Part shown: positions 1 through 10,068 of the stretch, piece after piece
How the letters are laid out: each line of letters opens with the position of its first letter
How positions within the stretch are numbered: position 1 is the first letter of the stretch
Assembly (NCBI GenBank): GCA_028819945.1
Contig: JAPPKQ010000046.1
Coordinates: 1-13,431 of the forward strand
Length of the DNA stretch: 13,431 nt
DNA from: a bacterium
GTDB lineage: Bacteria; Actinomycetota; Acidimicrobiia; Acidimicrobiales; CATQHL01
Direction of reading: 5' to 3'
Notes under the pieces: generated by a model
What the model saw: only the letters and a program-made list of their open reading frames with translations
Database searches by the model: none
Told to the model about the DNA's origin: nothing
Translations under genes and position numbers: made by a program

Positions 1-1335
1 GCCGAAGCCGGCGGCGTGCGAGGCCCTGCGACCGAAGATCTTGGGGCTCCAGTAGAAGAGCCCGGCCACCGCACCGAGGACGGCCGCCATCGCCACGAGG
101 TCCAGCAGCCCCGCGCCGGCCATGGTTCCCCGCAGATCGTCCAGGGGCGCCAGGGCGCGATCCAGATCACCCTGCCAGGACTCGTTGTGCCGAGCGAAGC
201 TCCGCAGGAACCCGACCGCGCCGCCCAGAACCCGGATGAATCCCACGATTGCCGCGAAGACCAGCACGCCGAGCGCCGACATCGCCACGGCGAGGTGCCC
301 GCTGGGTCGGGGCAGGCGGCGGGCGCTGCGGCCAAGGTCGGCCCAGCCTCCCAGCAGCGCCACGACCACCAGGGCCACGACGATGCCGCTGACCACGTAC
401 AGCGGCGTCGTCTGGGCCGACGGGCTGAAGAATCGCTGCAGGTCGGCACCGAAACTGAACACTCCGGCCAGACCGACGAGCGACAGCATGACACCCCAGC
501 GCCGCTGCGGCGTGCCGAAGGCCACCGGCAGGATCTCCCCCACGACGCCGATCACCGGAATGGCGAACACGAACACCTGCGGCTGGTCGAATACCCAGGA
601 GACCTGCTCGTACAGGTTCTGCCCGGCGCCGAAGCGCACCGCGCTCGGACCCCGCAGATCGATCCACATGATGACCAGGTTGGCCACCAGCACGGGCAGG
701 CTCAGGAGCCACACGGCGCCCGCCACGAACACCGACCAGGAGAAGAGCGGCATGCGTTCCAGGGTCATGCCCGCGGGCCGCTGGGTACACATGGTGGTGA
801 GCAGCACCGCCGTGGCGCCCAGCAGCGACAGCACCACCAGGGCGAAGGAGAGCAGGGAGAGTTCCACCGCCCGCTGCTCGCCGCCCGCGGCGAGGCCCCC
901 GTCGATGGCCCAGGAGGCGATGAGGACGCCGGCGCCGGTGAGCCAGCCCCAGAAGGCGGCCGCGGCCGCCCGCGGGAAGGCCACACCCCGGGCGCCGATC
1001 TGCAGTGGGACCACGTGCGTGGCGAGCCCGATCCACAACGGCATGACGAAGAGGAAGACCAGACCGACCCGGTAGAGCGTGAAGAACTGCCGGAACGACT
1101 CGATGCCCGGGAACACCTCGAGACCCGGCAGGTTGGCCCGCTCGATGTGCAGCAGCAGCCCGCACACCAGCACGAAGGTGCCGAGTAGCAGCGACGCCAG
1201 GATCCACATCCGCCCCAGCGTCTTGTGGTCGCTGCTGGACAGGATCCCCGCAAGCCCCCGCCGGGTCGGAGAGCCTGCCGGCATGGCTGAGGCGTGCTCG
1301 TCCGTGGCGGCAGCGTGAGTCTCGGTCGCGGTCAT
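1..1335 (-). CDS. Cytochrome c oxidase subunit I homologue lacking all haem/copper ligands (3' end beyond window)
   Basis: The 445 visible residues align without large gaps to subunit I of aa3-type haem-copper oxidases. Landmarks are SSDHKTLGRMW (33-43), VVPLQIGA..VAFPR (108-122), PQVFVFAIPVIGVVGEILP (252-270), FSFG (293-296) and YWSPKIFG (428-435), with about ten of the usual twelve membrane helices. Against bovine numbering remembered from the family, the ligand positions are H61 to Y88, H240 to Q251, H290/H291 to Q300/R301, H376 to G409 and H378 to L411. Y244 is F255, D91 is G117, E242 is Q253, K319 is about L328, and H368/D369 are L401/R402. It should bind neither haem a, haem a3 nor CuB. 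The frame is intact and the codons are normal for the window, so it looks maintained. ATG at 1335 is the first in-frame start after ctaB; no clear Shine-Dalgarno precedes it. Roughly 80-100 residues probably lie off the edge. Family membership is secure; function is unknown. Confidence 0.88.
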   Translation of the reverse strand, partial: MTATETHAAATDEHASAMPAGSPTRRGLAGILSSSDHKTLGRMWILASLLLGTFVLVCGLLLHIERANLPGLEVFPGIESFRQFFTLYRVGLVFLFVMPLWIGLATHVVPLQIGARGVAFPRAAAAAFWGWLTGAGVLIASWAIDGGLAAGGEQRAVELSLLSFALVVLSLLGATAVLLTTMCTQRPAGMTLERMPLFSWSVFVAGAVWLLSLPVLVANLVIMWIDLRGPSAVRFGAGQNLYEQVSWVFDQPQVFVFAIPVIGVVGEILPVAFGTPQRRWGVMLSLVGLAGVFSFGADLQRFFSPSAQTTPLYVVSGIVVALVVVALLGGWADLGRSARRLPRPSGHLAVAMSALGVLVFAAIVGFIRVLGGAVGFLRSFARHNESWQGDLDRALAPLDDLRGTMAGAGLLDLVAMAAVLGAVAGLFYWSPKIFGRRASHAAGFG

Positions 1336-1510: not shown

Positions 1511-2385
1511 TCAGACGAACCGATCCAGAGCCATGGCCCCGAACAGCAACACGATGTAGGTGATGGACCAGTTGAACAGCCGCATCGCCACTTGCGGTGT
1601 GCCGTGGCGAAGCAACCGGACACCAGGGCGACGAAGATCACGCCGGTCGCCAGAGCCGTCACGAGGTAGAGGGGCCCCAGCTCGGCCACGAACCCGAAGG
1701 CGACGCTGGTGACCCACAGGACCACGGTGTAGGCGATGATGCGCAGCGCCACGGTCCGGATCGAGCGGACCGCCGGCAGCATCGGCACCCCGACCTGCGC
1801 GTAGTCATCGCGGTAGCGCACCGCCAGCGCCCAGAAGTGGGGCGGCGTCCAGTAGAAGATCACCGCGAACAGCAGCAGCGGCGCCCAGTCCAGGCGGCCC
1901 GTCACGGCCGTCCAGCCCACGAGCACGGGAACCGCGCCGGCGGCGCCGCCGATGACGATGTTGCGCTCGGACCGCCGCTTCAGCCAGAGGCTGTACACGA
2001 ACACGTAGAACAGGGTGGCGCTCACCGCCAGCACCGCGCTGAGCAGGTTCACCATCAGCCAGAGCCAGACGAACGCCGCCACCTCCAGAGTGACCGCGAA
2101 CACCAGGGCGTTGCGCGGGCTGATCGCGCCGGTGACCAGGGGCCGGTCCTGGGTGCGCCGCATGACGCTGTCGATGTCGCGGTCGATGACCATGTTGAGC
2201 GCGTTGGCCCCGCCGGCTGCCAGGGCCCCGCCGGCGATGACCGCCCCGATCAACCACACCGGGGGCAGGCCTCGCTGCGCAACGATCATGGTGGGAACGG
2301 TCGTCACGAGCAGCAACTCGATGATGCGCGGTTTGGTCAGCGCCACGTAGGACGCGATCGTGGCCCGGGCTTTCGTCGCAGGCAT
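1511..2385 (-). CDS. ctaB: Protoheme IX farnesyltransferase (haem O synthase), with a one-base frameshift near the 3' end
   Basis: Membrane prenyltransferase of the UbiA superfamily that adds farnesyl to haem B to make haem O, the substrate of CtaA. The start LTKPRIIELLLVTTVPTMIV (16-35), the NxxxDxxxD prenyl-diphosphate site (N64, D68, D72 in NMVIDRDID), RPLVTGAISP, and WTPPHFWALAVRYRDDY (179-195) followed by GVPMLP are all typical. The first frame is good for 255 residues to position 1621. The conserved end (VAMRLFNWSITYIVLLFGAM, then LDRFV and a stop) is read from 1618 to 1511 in another frame. Restoring one base in the run at 1616-1619 gives a normal protein of 291 residues. The unshifted frame has no stop and continues through 1336-1510 into the oxidase-like gene. 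Either an assembly error or a true mutation is possible. ATG 2385 lacks a Shine-Dalgarno but has a -10-like hexamer 7 bases upstream. It is divergent from ctaA. Confidence 0.93.
1616..1622 (-). other. Frameshift site in ctaB
   Basis: On the coding strand the sequence reads GTG-TC-CGG-TTG-CTT. One base is missing between the frame ending at 1621 and the frame starting at 1618. A third C (GTG TCC CGG) would restore V-S-R-L-L-R-H. A short C run is a common place for sequencing indels. Confidence 0.75.
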
Positions 2386-2481: not shown

Positions 2482-3417
2482 ATGGCGCTGCTGAGGAGCG
2501 GAATCAGCGCGGCGACCTACCGCCGCATCACGCTGCTGGCCCTGCTGGCCCTCATCTTCATCATCATCACCGGCGGCGCCGTGCGGCTGACCGGCTCCGG
2601 CCTGGGCTGCTCCGACTGGCCGACCTGCGAGGAGGACCAGTTCCTTCCCGACCTCGAGTACCACGCCCTGGTGGAGTCGGTGAACAGGGCCATCACCGGG
2701 GTCGTCTCGATTGCGGTGGCGCTCGCAGTGCTCGGCGCGCTGCTGCTGCGGCCCCGTCGACGCGACCTGATCGTCCTGGCGTTCGGTCTGGTGGCCGGCG
2801 TGGCGGGCCAGGTGGTCCTCGGCGGCCTGGTCGTCTGGTACCACCTCTCCCCCTGGTTGGTCATGGCCCACTTCCTGCTGTCGATGGTCTTGGTGGCCAA
2901 TGCGGTCGTCCTGCACCACCGGGCCGGCCGGCCGGCCCACTCCGGGGTCCCCGACGGCGATGCGCTCGCCGGCGGCACGCGAGCCCGCACGGCCTGCAAC
3001 CTGACGCGCCTGCTCGTGGTGGTTGCCGTCCTGGCGATCGTGACCGGCACGTTGCTGACCGGAGCGGGCCCCCACGGCGGCGACGCCGACGTCGAACGGC
3101 TCCAATACGACATCCCGTCGCTGGCCCGGCTGCACGGAGGGGCGATGGCGCTGTGTGCGGCGATCGCGCTGCTGCTCTGGGCCGGAGCCGAGCGGGGCTC
3201 ATTCCGTCTGCGCCGTCAGGGTCGAGGCCCGGCGGTCCACGCCACGGCCGCCCGGGTGGTGGTTCTGGTGATCGGCGCGCAGGCGGCGGTCGGCTACCTG
3301 CAGTACTTCACGGGTGTGCCGGTGCTCCTCGTGGGCATCCACATCGCCGGCGCGGCCGCCCTGTGGACCGTCGTGCTACGGCTTCACCTGTCCGTGCACG
3401 AGGCGGCCGCCCGGTAG
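2482..3417 (+). CDS. ctaA: Haem A synthase (COX15/CtaA family)
   Basis: Integral membrane enzyme that oxidises the methyl group of haem O to the formyl group of haem A for aa3-type oxidases. At 311 residues it has the family length and about eight hydrophobic helices in two similar halves. Motifs seen: TGGAVRLTGSGLGCSDWPTC (30-49) with the cysteine pair C43/C49 in the first outer loop, QVVLGGLVVW (108-117), GPHGGD, and histidines H128 (MAHFLLS), H216 (RLHGGA) and H285 (GIHIAGA) at haem-binding helix positions. In the first helix after the cysteines the usual ExxHR reads ESVNR, with Asn 68 where Bacillus-type enzymes have His; from memory this is common in actinobacterial CtaA. ATG 2482 has no Shine-Dalgarno but has a -10-like TAGGCT just upstream. 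Divergent from ctaB, consistent with joint control of haem O and haem A synthesis. Its TAG stop forms part of a -10-like hexamer before tRNA-Glu. Confidence 0.95.
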   Translation: MALLRSGISAATYRRITLLALLALIFIIITGGAVRLTGSGLGCSDWPTCEEDQFLPDLEYHALVESVNRAITGVVSIAVALAVLGALLLRPRRRDLIVLAFGLVAGVAGQVVLGGLVVWYHLSPWLVMAHFLLSMVLVANAVVLHHRAGRPAHSGVPDGDALAGGTRARTACNLTRLLVVVAVLAIVTGTLLTGAGPHGGDADVERLQYDIPSLARLHGGAMALCAAIALLLWAGAERGSFRLRRQGRGPAVHATAARVVVLVIGAQAAVGYLQYFTGVPVLLVGIHIAGAAALWTVVLRLHLSVHEAAAR

Positions 3418-3429: not shown

Positions 3430-3502
3430 GCCCCCATCGTCCAGCGGCCTAGGACGCCGCCCTTTCAAGGCGGTAACACGGGTTCGAATCCCGTTGGGGG
3501 TG
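3430..3502 (+). tRNA. tRNA-Glu (anticodon UUC)
   Basis: 73-base cloverleaf. The acceptor arms GCCCCCA/TGGGGGT have a terminal G:U pair as in many actinobacterial tRNA-Glu. The anticodon arm is CCGCC-CTTTCAA-GGCGG, giving TTC. The T arm is ACGGG-TTCGAAT-CCCGT and the discriminator is G. CCA is not encoded. First of three tRNA genes in a row. Confidence 0.95.
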
Positions 3503-3557
3503 CCGCTGCCCGGCTCCACCGCTTCAGCGCGCCGCGCCGCTCCGGGGCCGCCGCAGG

Positions 3558-3563
3558 TAGGAT
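3558..3563 (+). promoter_or_regulatory. Candidate -10 box of tRNA-Asp/tRNA-Phe
   Basis: TAGGAT, preceded by GCAGG, ends 12 bases before the tRNA-Asp 5' end. It resembles the TAGGCT before tRNA-Glu, so the Asp-Phe pair may have its own promoter in the 73-base spacer. Confidence 0.45.
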
Positions 3564-3575
3564 TCGGTCCTTGCT

Positions 3576-3650
3576 GGTCCTGTAGTGCAGCTTGGAGTGC
3601 ACGCCGCCCTGTCAAGGCGGAGGTCGCGGGTTCAAATCCCGTCAGGACCG
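3576..3650 (+). tRNA. tRNA-Asp (anticodon GUC)
   Basis: 75-base cloverleaf. The acceptor is GGTCCTG/CAGGACC, the anticodon arm is CCGCC-CTGTCAA-GGCGG giving GTC, the T arm is GCGGG-TTCAAAT-CCCGT, and the discriminator is G. CCA is not encoded. Only 4 bases separate it from tRNA-Phe, so the two are surely co-transcribed. Confidence 0.95.
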
Positions 3651-3654
3651 CCCC

Positions 3655-3727
3655 GGTCGGGTAGCTCAGTTGGCAGAGCGTCCGCCTGAAAAGCGGAAGG
3701 TCCCCGGATCGATGCCGGGCCCGACCA
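3655..3727 (+). tRNA. tRNA-Phe (anticodon GAA)
   Basis: 73-base cloverleaf. The acceptor is GGTCGGG/CCCGACC, the anticodon arm is TCCGC-CTGAAAA-GCGGA giving GAA, the variable loop is AGGTC and the discriminator is A. The T arm is CCCGG-ATCGATG-CCGGG, so position 54 is A instead of the nearly universal T. CCA is not encoded. It converges on pyrE, with 53 bases between them and no clear terminator. Confidence 0.94.
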
Positions 3728-3780
3728 CGCGGTCGACCCCCGTGACCCGGGCCCGGTCGGCGACGGTCTGCTCCGGCGAC

Positions 3781-4561: not shown

Positions 4562-4978
4562 ATGAGTGAAAGCGACGCGAGCACCGAGAGAAAAGGCCGC
4601 GAGGTCACGCCTGAGCACAAGGCGGCGATGATCCAAGGGCGAACCGAGACCCGTGTTGTACGCCAGTACCTCGAGGCGCTCGAAGTGAGACAGTCCGGAG
4701 GAAGGCGCCGCTCCAAAGAATCGCTCCAGAAGAAGTTGGCGGCTGTGGAAGAGGACCTGGAATCAGCGGGCGCTGTCGGGCGGCTGCACCTGGTGCAGGA
4801 GAGAATCGACCTGCAGAAAGCAATTGACGCCGCTGAACAGAGCGTTGACATCGACGAACTCGAGAGCGGCTTCATCGATGTTGCGGCTTCCTACAGCGAG
4901 CGTAAGGGCATCTCGTACCAGGCTTGGCGAGAGGTCGGTGTCCCACCAAAGGTGCTTCAGGCTGCGGGCATTCGCTGA
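4562..4978 (+). CDS. Conserved-looking protein of unknown function
   Basis: 138 residues, highly charged and soluble, with no signal peptide or membrane segment. The N-terminus is polar and probably disordered (1-16). Residues 17-45 (VTPEHKAAMIQGR..VVRQYLEALE) and 52-92 (SKESLQKKLAAVEEDLES...LHLVQERIDLQKAI) should be helical and may form a coiled coil, with the basic stretch GGRRRSK between them. The C-terminal part (ELESGFIDVAASYSERKG, then ISYQAWREVGVPPKVLQAAG) looks like a small helical module, possibly DNA-binding. I recall actinobacterial proteins of this layout without a known function, but cannot check. The ATG has a strong Shine-Dalgarno and a recognisable promoter. Codon use is less GC-biased than the neighbours (AGA, AAA, GTT, TCC), which may mean a different history or expression level. 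It is divergent from pyrE and convergent with purB, sharing a hairpin with it. Confidence 0.85.
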   Translation: MSESDASTERKGREVTPEHKAAMIQGRTETRVVRQYLEALEVRQSGGRRRSKESLQKKLAAVEEDLESAGAVGRLHLVQERIDLQKAIDAAEQSVDIDELESGFIDVAASYSERKGISYQAWREVGVPPKVLQAAGIR

Positions 4979-7743: not shown

Positions 7744-7746
<3 letters not shown>

Positions 7747-8778
7747 CGGTCGCGACCCGTTGGCGCGCCGTGCCAGTGTGAGCGAGAAGTCACCGGCTCC
7801 GTCCAGCCACTGCGCCAGGACCGTGAAGCCGGCCGCCGCCAACTCCTCGAGGATCTGGGCGGGCCGGAACTTGACCGAGACCTCGGTTCGCATGGCCTCG
7901 CCGTCGGCGAAGGAGACGCGCAGGCCGAGTCGCCGCACGTGCACCACCTGCGCGCCTTCGGACCGCAGCCACATCTCGACTCGCTGCGTCTCGCCGTCGT
8001 AGGTGGCCACGTGCTTGAACCGCAGGGGCTCGAAGTCGGCGTCCAGGCGCCGGTTGATGACGCGCAGCACGTTGCGGTTGAACGCCGCGGTGATCCCGGC
8101 GGCGTCGTCGTAGGCGGCGAGCAGGCGGCTGCGCTCCTTCACCAGATCCGCGCCGAGCAGGAACGTCTCGCCCGCCGAGGACATGCCGGCGATCTCGGCG
8201 AGGAACTTCCGGCGCTCGGGTCCGGGGAAGTTGCCGATGGTGCCACCCAGCAGGGCCACCAGCCGCCGCCCCTCTCTGGGGACCGACCGCAGGTCCGCAC
8301 CGAACTCGCCCACGACGCCGTGGGTGACCACGCCGGGATAGGCCGCAGCGGCGCCGGCCGCGGTGGCGCGCAGGGCCGTCTCGTTCACGTCGAAGGGAAC
8401 GAAGGCCTCGAGAGTGCCGGCGGTGGCCATGGCGTCGAGCAGCAGGCGGGTCTTGTCCGAGAACCCCGAGCCCAATTCGACGAGCGTCCCAGCCCCCGAG
8501 AGCGTCGCGATCTCCGGAGCGGCACGTCGCAGGATCTCGTGCTCGCGGCGCGTCAGGTAGTACTCGCTCAGCCGGGTGATCTCCCCGAACAGCCGGGAGC
8601 CCTCGTCGTCGTAGAACCACTTGGGGGGAATGTCCTTCGGCTCCGATCCGAGCCCCGCGGACACGTCGGCCGCCAGCGCCCGGTCCTGGGCCGCCTCGTC
8701 GGTGCAGACGCTGATCGTGTAGCCGGGGTCCCCGGCGGCGGCCGCGGCGAACGCGTCGGAGCGTGCTGCCTTCGCCAC
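7744..8778 (-). CDS. egtD: L-histidine N-alpha-methyltransferase (ergothioneine biosynthesis)
   Basis: SAM-dependent enzyme that trimethylates the alpha-amino group of histidine to hercynine, the first step to the thiol antioxidant ergothioneine. Family marks in the 344 residues: PKWFYDDEGSRLFGEITRL (52-70), SEYYLTRREHEIL (71-83), the SAM-binding loop VELGSGFSDKTRLLL (100-114), FVPFDVNETAL, LLGGTIGNFPGPER, FLLGADLVKER and AYDDAAGITAAFNRNVLRVIN. The GTG at 8778 is 12 bases after the egtB stop and has no Shine-Dalgarno, so translation probably depends on ribosomes arriving from egtB. The first 15 or so residues are alanine-rich and the true start is slightly uncertain. With egtB it forms the core ergothioneine pair; egtA, egtC and egtE are not in this window. 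Confidence 0.96.
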
Positions 8779-8790
8779 GGCGGTGACGGG

Positions 8791-10068
8791 TCAGCGACTG
8801 TCCCGGGCCAGGCGCAGGCCCGAGAAGTGCCAGCGCGTGCCCGGAGCGAAGAAGTTGCGGTAGCTGGCGCGGACGTGTCCGGCGGGGGTGACGCAGCAGC
8901 CACCCCGCAGCACCATCTGGTTGACCATGAACTTGCCGTTGTACTCGCCCACGGCACCCGCCGCGGGCGCGAATCCGGGATAGGGGCTGTAGGCGCTGGC
9001 AGTCCACTCCCAGACGTCGCCGAAGAGCTGCGTGAGACCGTCGCCGGCGGCGGGACGGGGGTGGAGCGCGCCCGAGGGCAGGAGGTTCGCGTCGTCGCTG
9101 TCCGGTCGCGCGGCGGCGCTTCCCGCGGCGGCCTCCCATTCGGCCTCGGTCGGCAGCCGGGCGCCGGCCCACTGGGCGAAGGCATCGGCCTCGTAGTACG
9201 AGATGTGGCAGACCGGATCGTCGGCGTGGACCTCCCGCGGGCCGGCCAGCGTGAACACCTGCCAGGAGCCGGCACTGAAGTCGTCGCCGGTGCGGCTCCA
9301 GTACAGCGGTGCGGACCAGCCCGAGGTCTGCGCCGCCGCCCACCCGTCGGACAGCCAGAGGGTGGGTGTCCGGTAGCCGCCGTCGGCCATGAACGCCAGC
9401 CAGTCGCCGCAGGTGACGAGGCGGCCCGACAACTCGTAGGGCCTGAGCAGGATCTCATGCCGCGGCCCCTCGTTGTCGAAGGCGAAGGATTCGCCGTCGT
9501 GCCCGATCGACCGACGGCCGCCCGCGAACCCAACCCAACCGGGGGCGGACCCGGCGGCCGTGGGGTCCGGCGACGTGCCGGGACGGTAGGCGGGCTGGGC
9601 GGGATTGCAGCTCAGGACGTGCTTGATGTCCATGAGCAGGAGTTCCTGGTGCTGCTGCTCGTGGTTCAGGCCCAGGGTCGCAAGGTCCTCCACCGTCTCG
9701 GGGGGCTCGCCGGTCAACAGGCGGACCATTGCCTCGTCGACCCAACTGCGGTACTCGGCAACCTCGGCGGCGGAGGGGCGGGAGATGATCCCCCGTTCCG
9801 GGCGGGGGTGCCGGGGGCCCGCTGCCTCGTAGTAGGAGTTGAAGAGGTAGTGATAGAGAGGGTCCGCCTCGCCGTAGTCCTCGAGGTGAGGCTTCAGCAG
9901 GAACGTCTCGAAGAACCAGGTGGTGTGGGCGCGGTGCCACTTGGTGGGGCTGACGTCGGCCATCGTCTGGATGCACTGATCCTCCGGCGACAGCGGCGCC
10001 GCCAACTGCTCGGTCAGCCCGCGTACGGCCGTATAGCGCTCGGCGAGGGTGCCGTCCGGCTCCGTCAC
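8791..10068 (-). CDS. egtB: Hercynine oxygenase / sulfoxide synthase (ergothioneine biosynthesis)
   Basis: Non-haem iron enzyme that uses oxygen to join a thiol (gamma-glutamylcysteine or cysteine, by subtype) to hercynine. Its 425 residues have the two expected parts. The N-terminal DinB-like domain contains KWHRAHTTWFFE (43-54) and NHEQQHQELLLMDIKH (135-150), so the iron ligands should be H48, H136 and H140. The C-terminal formylglycine-generating-enzyme-like domain contains GARLPTEAEWE, FGDVWEWTASAY, GEYNGKFMVNQMVLRGG and YRNFFAPGTRWHFSGLRLAR. Arg 86 and Arg 89 (PRHPR) are spaced like the two arginines I recall as binding gamma-glutamylcysteine in the Mycobacterium thermoresistibile enzyme, hinting at the glutamylcysteine route; this is a tentative reading. 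The GTG start overlaps the dnaJ stop (GTGA), so egtB is probably coupled to dnaJ. Confidence 0.96.
   Translation of the reverse strand: MTEPDGTLAERYTAVRGLTEQLAAPLSPEDQCIQTMADVSPTKWHRAHTTWFFETFLLKPHLEDYGEADPLYHYLFNSYYEAAGPRHPRPERGIISRPSAAEVAEYRSWVDEAMVRLLTGEPPETVEDLATLGLNHEQQHQELLLMDIKHVLSCNPAQPAYRPGTSPDPTAAGSAPGWVGFAGGRRSIGHDGESFAFDNEGPRHEILLRPYELSGRLVTCGDWLAFMADGGYRTPTLWLSDGWAAAQTSGWSAPLYWSRTGDDFSAGSWQVFTLAGPREVHADDPVCHISYYEADAFAQWAGARLPTEAEWEAAAGSAAARPDSDDANLLPSGALHPRPAAGDGLTQLFGDVWEWTASAYSPYPGFAPAAGAVGEYNGKFMVNQMVLRGGCCVTPAGHVRASYRNFFAPGTRWHFSGLRLARDSR

Follow-up and report, generated by a model that had tools for sequence, protein, structure and literature searches.

The heme-copper fold of cytochrome c oxidase subunit I is normally taken as inseparable from its metals. 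A protein that departs from this has been described in Acetobacter: the 'deranged COX1-like protein' lacks any metal-binding residue and its gene is clustered with ctaB. In the passages of PMC10715153 that deal with it, a role in stabilising CtaB is suggested, the hosts are acetous alphaproteobacteria whose genomes are said to be without COX genes, and an earlier paper (reference 13 therein) is credited for the protein. A second relevant element, a membrane-bound cupredoxin ('Cup'), appears together with TlpA and bacterial COX systems in a figure legend of PMC8239418.

The present paper concerns a homologue of subunit I encoded at the left edge of a 13,431-nucleotide stretch of bacterial DNA (the window). 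The protein, called I' here, has neither haem nor copper ligands and its gene adjoins those of a divergent subunit III (III') and of a membrane protein (ORF), the three forming a module within a caa3 oxidase operon. A preliminary description of the window stated that no function was described for such a protein. Literature searches, mostly of open-access papers, likewise gave no account of the I'/III'/ORF module in Acidimicrobiia among the papers listed, but a COX1-like protein without ligands had been reported from Acetobacter, according to the text of PMC10715153 cited above, and as a kind the pseudo-subunit I is not wholly new. We consider the chance about even that I' is a pseudoenzyme whose module packs against the caa3 oxidase, or helps to build it, as a structural or assembly subunit.

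Identity of I' and its ligand positions

The I' frame starts with an ATG at 1335, stays open to base 1 and runs off the left window end, giving the first 445 of about 571 residues (Table 1). The C-terminus, including the motif PDPWGGHTMEWFAASPPPLDNF, was located on another contig of the same genome (C197, L003), which begins about four residues after the break as judged by the full-length relative P0002 (571 aa, 96 % identical to I'). I' matched PF00115 of Pfam with an E value of 4.9e-33 (115.1 bits, cut-off 34.8), and in a phmmer search of the PDB it matched actinobacterial CtaD (E 9.9e-30), which bears out the earlier proposal that it is a COX1 homologue along its length.

Table 1 Features of the window
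Feature	Position	Strand	Basis
I', haem- and copper-less homologue of cytochrome c oxidase subunit I	1..1335	-	COX1 homology and ligand columns
ctaB, haem O synthase	1511..2385	-	NCBIfam haem O synthase, 367 bits (cut-off 246); UbiA 1.6e-60
ctaA, haem A synthase	2482..3417	+	PF02628, E 6.1e-19; divergent from ctaB
tRNA-Glu, tRNA-Asp, tRNA-Phe in tandem	3430-3728	+	tRNA identification
138-aa open reading frame	4562-4978	+	no Pfam match at E 0.001
Histidine-specific methyltransferase (PF10017) and adjacent DinB/FGE-sulfatase protein	7744-10068	-	Pfam

The ligand columns were compared with those of 16 canonical sequences, each of which has six His, at positions which we take to be H102, H284, H333/H334, H419 and H421 in Rhodobacter numbering. 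In I' the low-spin haem pair of helices II and X was replaced by Y88 and D412, the haem a3 proximal His by L410, the three CuB His by Q251, Q300 and R301, and the cross-linked Tyr by F255. The preliminary description had also reported all six ligands as replaced; Y88, Q251, Q300 and R301 agree with its reading, but in helix X the residues are L410 and D412 and not G409 and L411. The two alignments are shifted by one residue there, and helix X has no His in either register. The further losses it had listed were found as well, i.e. the helix VI Glu (Q253), the cross-linked Tyr, the K-channel Lys (L327) and the D-channel Asp (Gly). At the Mg site the Asp is indeed lost, but the His column holds Thr in 13 canonical caa3-type rows too, so the absence of this His is not special to I'. 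The residue that follows the lost haem ligand of helix II, R89 (window about 1069-1071, minus strand), was Arg in 70 % of the members without the low-spin pair, the canonical residue being Gly.

Histidines elsewhere in the membrane were considered as alternative ligands and rejected from the positions of the conserved His columns: among 116 relatives (from the best 120 of 341) the best conserved were H37 near the N-terminus (115), H528 near the C-terminus (96) and H347 where helix 9 starts (82).

The source genome is a fragmented MAG (2.6 Mb, 485 contigs, 76 % complete) and the frame of the adjacent ctaB is broken, both of which could favour an alignment, frameshift or assembly artefact as the origin of the ligand loss. 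Against this, six of the seven other genomes of the genus have these six residues as well (the exception, L067, has His at the first position), and the ligands are absent from many public proteins. The recurrence and the ligand-less public proteins refute an artefact, to which we attach a practically negligible probability. In the query genome itself ctaD is truncated at a contig end; in a sister genome (L068) it keeps every ligand as well as the Glu, Lys and Tyr.

Gene order and the accompanying genes

The ctaB gene lies directly upstream of I' on the same strand. Its 3' stretch (window about 1511-1640, minus strand) is out of frame here but intact in four relatives of the genus, and the break may be an assembly error; because of it, an open frame of 818 aa runs from ctaB into I'. 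Elsewhere in the window, the open reading frames listed across the three tRNA genes probably include tRNA sequence, and the methyltransferase and DinB/FGE-sulfatase layout is presumably the ergothioneine pair egtD/egtB. In CtaA, the first-half site at which we would expect a His as haem ligand reads ESVNRAITG, possibly a second loss of a haem ligand in the same cluster. A CtaA variant with the substitution H60N is listed for Acidimicrobiaceae in PMC8239418.

The leftward continuation of the window and a ctaC with part of a ctaD, which had been sought, were found on contig C197. After the end of I' the contig carries III' (204 aa; PF00510, 45.8 bits, cut-off 23.8), a membrane ORF of 277 aa that scored above no Pfam cut-off, a ctaC fused to a cytochrome c domain, and an initial piece of ctaD. 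The left window end leads into a caa3 oxidase operon, with the order ctaB, I', III', ORF, ctaC and ctaD and with ctaA divergent from ctaB; relatives such as L161 add ctaE, ctaF and ctaG. III', ORF and ctaC followed I' in 35 of 38 loci, two of the others being cut by contig ends (L012, L056) and one lacking ctaC (L059). Of 41 loci that could be tested by script, 39 have ctaB directly upstream of I' on the same strand, and the other two display ctaB on inspection. These two misses, and a script count for III' of 86 out of 97, are at least partly due to overlapping frames, such genes being visible at the loci. Wherever the neighbourhood is visible, L059 included, I' adjoins ctaB.

The longer ORF homologue of locus L047 was predicted to have seven membrane helices and a cupredoxin domain, with an overall pTM of only 0.45. 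Its cupredoxin part matched PF13473 (E 1.6e-11), has the His, Cys, His and Met in place, and has a predicted fold like auracyanin and amicyanin. The query's ORF has neither the domain nor the copper ligands, and the blue-copper motif (His-Cys-His-Met), assigned as a sequence pattern, occurred in 18 of 97 ORFs. Judged by their sequences, III' and ORF are degenerate oxidase parts like the I' beside them. Small transmembrane proteins are encoded downstream of ctaG in caa3 operons of other classes (L148:6565-7215; L149:8491-9150); they resemble the C-terminal half of ORF, with a cupredoxin match in L148, and the resemblance suggests that ORF arose by fusion.

Graded loss of ligands in the family

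The I' family belongs to one order, and 98 loci were examined after removal of eight duplicates. Named family records (L004-L014) are Acidimicrobiia, Acidimicrobiales, Acidimicrobiaceae, Microthrixaceae, Candidatus Microthrix or 'bacterium', and we infer that the order is Acidimicrobiales. The I' of a Candidatus Microthrix record (L011) has no ligands. A NOR-like COX1 (L051) and a B-type COX1 (L045) were excluded by sequence. Outside the order no I' was present among the matches listed, and all 15 listed loci from other orders or classes have six His. ORF matches outside the order, among those listed, were partial and reached at most 111 bits, compared with at least 182 for full matches within it. 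The scores of the subunit I profile (A1) overlap for I' and canonical subunit I, the ligand check covering the listed loci, and ORF (A3) was used as the marker of the module because A1 scores do not separate the two.

When the query was aligned with 116 of the best 120 of its 341 relatives, shorter ones being dropped, 87 of the 117 sequences had none of the six His, 25 had only H102, four had only H421 and one had both helix X His; neither the low-spin pair nor a CuB His was present in any. Had this copy alone lost the histidines, as the preliminary description allowed, its homologues would keep them, which these 87 do not. A second set of 119 sequences, from the best 120 of 344 matches of the L047 protein, kept the low-spin pair throughout (119/119) and the a3 His also in 99, again with no CuB His (0/119). 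In this L047 group (P0122-P0241) the lost CuB site often reads GRPEVY. Such members might, from their sequences, be copper-free haem proteins fed by the cupredoxin.

Over the 98 loci the low-spin pair was present in 27 and absent from 71, some of these being partial sequences. Five loci had a single His at the CuB positions and none had two or more; the CuB triad survives in none of the members examined. In early branches the low-spin haem pair and the cupredoxin domain on ORF are mostly retained; the query lineage, like many others, has neither. Scored together, with the copper site assigned by pattern, 17 loci had haem pair and copper motif, ten the haem pair only, one the copper motif only and 69 neither, one being unknown. 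A TlpA-like gene followed ORF in 8/16, 1/10, 1/1 and 0/65 of these four classes, respectively, where the stretch was sufficiently long. An independent-pairs test of haem against copper loss gave six pairs (seven on all branches) and was not significant, the association following the tree. We therefore claim no more than a shared trend for the parallel loss of haem and copper sites.

Phylogeny and selection

A quick maximum-likelihood tree was made of 123 rows, with the ligand columns removed and three short rows dropped. Its support values are SH-aLRT without bootstrap, it leaves 40 of its 119 inner branches unresolved, and composition was flagged as unlike in 30 of its rows. An SH-aLRT of 100 supported the branch that sets the 95 I' rows apart from the rest. 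When the tree was rooted on the remaining 28 rows (a mixture of caa3 and other A-type oxidases in which one gene is present twice, as L081 and L154), the ligand-keeping L046 and L047 groups were basal and the L052 group branched soon after. Among I' rows the tree implies at least seven changes of the low-spin pair and at least four of the copper motif. This branching order fits a course in which CuB would have been lost first and the rest repeatedly later.

The median dN/dS over 28 pairs of eight query-genus genomes, some sequences being partial, was 0.178 for I' (maximum 0.233), 0.129 for III', 0.150 for ORF, 0.194 for ctaC and 0.115 for ctaD; ctaE gave 0.187 in seven genomes (21 pairs). No internal stop was listed for divergent copies of I'. 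With its open frame and this median dN/dS, I' does not qualify as a pseudogene, and lone decay of the copy is ruled out by the same median together with the ligand-less relatives. The order-wide family, the lack of internal stops and the median dN/dS support the earlier view of a recruited, metal-free protein rather than decay. Over long range (31 loci) the median tree distance was 2.24 for I' and 0.64 for ctaD, a divergence about 3.5 times as large, and I' is therefore less constrained than the enzyme. Distance correlations over the 31 loci did not pick out a single partner of I'.

Slow decay of the whole set, as the remnant of a former second oxidase that persists only through its place inside the caa3 operon, would agree with the graded ligand loss, the evolution faster than that of ctaD and the shortened ORF of L059. 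Purifying selection on all three genes (median dN/dS of 0.13-0.18) and the intact frames of the divergent copies speak against it, as does the retention of ORF in 166 of 248 genomes of the order, since about 3.2 kb of dispensable DNA should often be deleted or broken. We regard slow decay as very improbable.

Predicted fold and conserved face

AlphaFold2 predicted an intact 12-helix fold for P0002 (pLDDT 84.6, pTM 0.88), with a TM-score of 0.75-0.78 to subunit I of CcO and bo3. Cytoplasmic and outer sides were assigned from the predicted helices and the inside-out topology of CcO, assumed to hold for I'. For the 71 pair-less members the mean frequency of the top residue, in columns that are not independent of each other, was 0.53 on the cytoplasmic side compared with 0.42 on the outer (p 2e-5); the values were 0.59 and 0.48 in the 27 haem-keeping members (p 8e-6), and 0.69 and 0.70 in the 28 other, canonical rows (p 0.69). 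Canonical residues kept in more than 85 % of the 71 were mostly in cytoplasmic loops (DH...G; P...G....AFPR......W; T....R..G; EW....P; NF), and some were in helix VI (W, P, P, G). The outer side of CcO subunit I is where haem propionates, CuA and cytochrome c meet this subunit. In I' this side is more eroded, yet D226 and E65, near the outer ends of helices 5 and 1, were present in 79 and 73 % of pair-less members, respectively.

A cofactor-free or unusual activity of I' itself, as a proton, ion or lipid channel or with a cofactor bound by non-canonical residues, would be in line with the intact predicted fold, with the low-spin haem pair kept by early relatives and with the frequency of R89, E65 and D226 in pair-less members. 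However, I' has lost the helix VI Glu together with the residues of the D- and K-channels, and in members without the low-spin pair no in-membrane His or Cys column reaches 60 %. Such an activity seems to us improbable, if slightly less so than slow decay.

Co-occurrence with the caa3 oxidase

Presence was scored in 248 genomes of the order, with E < 1e-30 for ORF and E < 1e-180 for caa3-type ctaD. Module and caa3 were both found in 154 genomes, caa3 only in 2, the module only in 12 and neither in 80 (Fisher p 3.6e-49, a test that ignores operon linkage and common descent, to which the co-occurrence is partly due). An I'-like fragment is present in each of the two ctaD-only genomes, in G033 by sequence (L056) and in G526 by score only. 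Among the 12 ORF-only genomes, six have a cut or split ctaD (G000, G217, G412, G430, G433, G510) and G012 a piece at a contig end. In G038, where ctaC itself is short, and in G459 and G512, where about 700 bases at most separate ORF from a contig end, the contig stops before ctaD could show. There remain G492 and G032. The latter (locus L059) has I' and III', an ORF of 144 residues and ctaB, with no ctaC in the 3.4 kb beyond and no caa3-type ctaD found in the genome, and looks like a true exception with the module but without caa3. The co-occurrence supports the link of I' to a true oxidase that had been suggested earlier.

The main rival to the reading of the module as a structural partner of caa3 is that I' serves haem O/A biogenesis outside the mature oxidase, by stabilising CtaB (or CtaB-CtaA) or by holding CtaB near the nascent subunit I. 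The constant position of ctaB next to I' agrees with this, and so does the exception L059, which keeps ctaB and I' while ctaC was not found. UbiA-type enzymes have their active site facing the cytoplasm, and the better conserved cytoplasmic side of I' would suit a partner of this type. There is also the ctaB-clustered precedent from Acetobacter, as outlined in PMC10715153. On the other hand, most of the genomes without module or caa3 carry another A-type oxidase and do without the module, one such oxidase having ctaB beside it (L155), and service to CtaB leaves the retention of III' and ORF with I' unexplained. We consider a role in haem biogenesis possible but unlikely.

Discussion

The reading of the module as a structural or assembly partner of caa3 is preferred because the module is kept order-wide with caa3, is under selection, has an intact predicted fold and has one face better preserved than the other. 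In such a mechanism I' would keep the subunit I fold without metals, and I', III' and the membrane ORF would together be a paralogous, catalytically dead copy of the oxidase core. Contact with the caa3 encoded just downstream would be made by the membrane helices of I' and by its cytoplasmic-side half. From the sequences of the family, the ancestral set may have been redox-active, with haem in I' and type-1 copper in ORF; CuB would have been lost first, and the haem and copper sites later in many lineages. The metal sites would have been lost because the function that was kept was scaffolding. A more specific proposal, which we hold tentatively and with less confidence than the structural role as such, is that caa3 in this order joins an active oxidase and its dead twin in one hetero-complex. 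The twin would be a duplicated core, made up of I', III' and what was once a cupredoxin subunit, in which redox centres decayed singly and in repeated events over the order and the cytoplasmic face remained as an obligate scaffold. A haem A carrier, one of the roles suggested in the preliminary description, looks unlikely because I' is without ligands.

The family separates the structural role of the heme-copper fold from the role of its metals, which appear to have been stripped stepwise in many lineages while the protein was kept beside an intact oxidase. It provides a natural series with three, two, one and no His for testing fold against metals, and suggests that an oxidase fold can be reused as a scaffold or assembly partner. 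It also cautions that, in these genomes, the proteins annotated as 'cytochrome c oxidase subunit I' include one that is not an oxidase.

Compared to canonical caa3 subunit I (CtaD, PF00115), I' is homologous over its length, has the same predicted 12-helix fold and shares the motifs DHK, PLQIGA..FPR, RxxGM, YWxPKxFG and PWxGxTLEWxxxSPPP. It differs from CtaD in lacking all six His ligands, the cross-linked Tyr, the helix VI Glu, the K-channel Lys and the D-channel Asp, in being shorter (571 aa in P0002, 697 aa in the ctaD of L068) and in evolving faster. The ligand-retaining I' of the L047 type belongs to the same clade and has the same gene order as the query type, and has already lost CuB; unlike the query, it retains both His of the low-spin haem and in most cases that of a3, its ORF usually bears a type-1-copper-like cupredoxin, and a TlpA gene is often present. 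In another class, a transmembrane cupredoxin protein encoded close to canonical caa3 genes (L148) is reminiscent of 'Cup', and the C-terminal half of ORF is similar to it, but the ORF of the query lineage has no cupredoxin domain. The Acetobacter protein, compared here by its description in the source text, is alike in being COX1-like, in lacking all metal-binding residues and in its clustering with ctaB. Unlike the Acetobacter case as described there, I' nearly always accompanies a complete caa3 oxidase together with III' and ORF.
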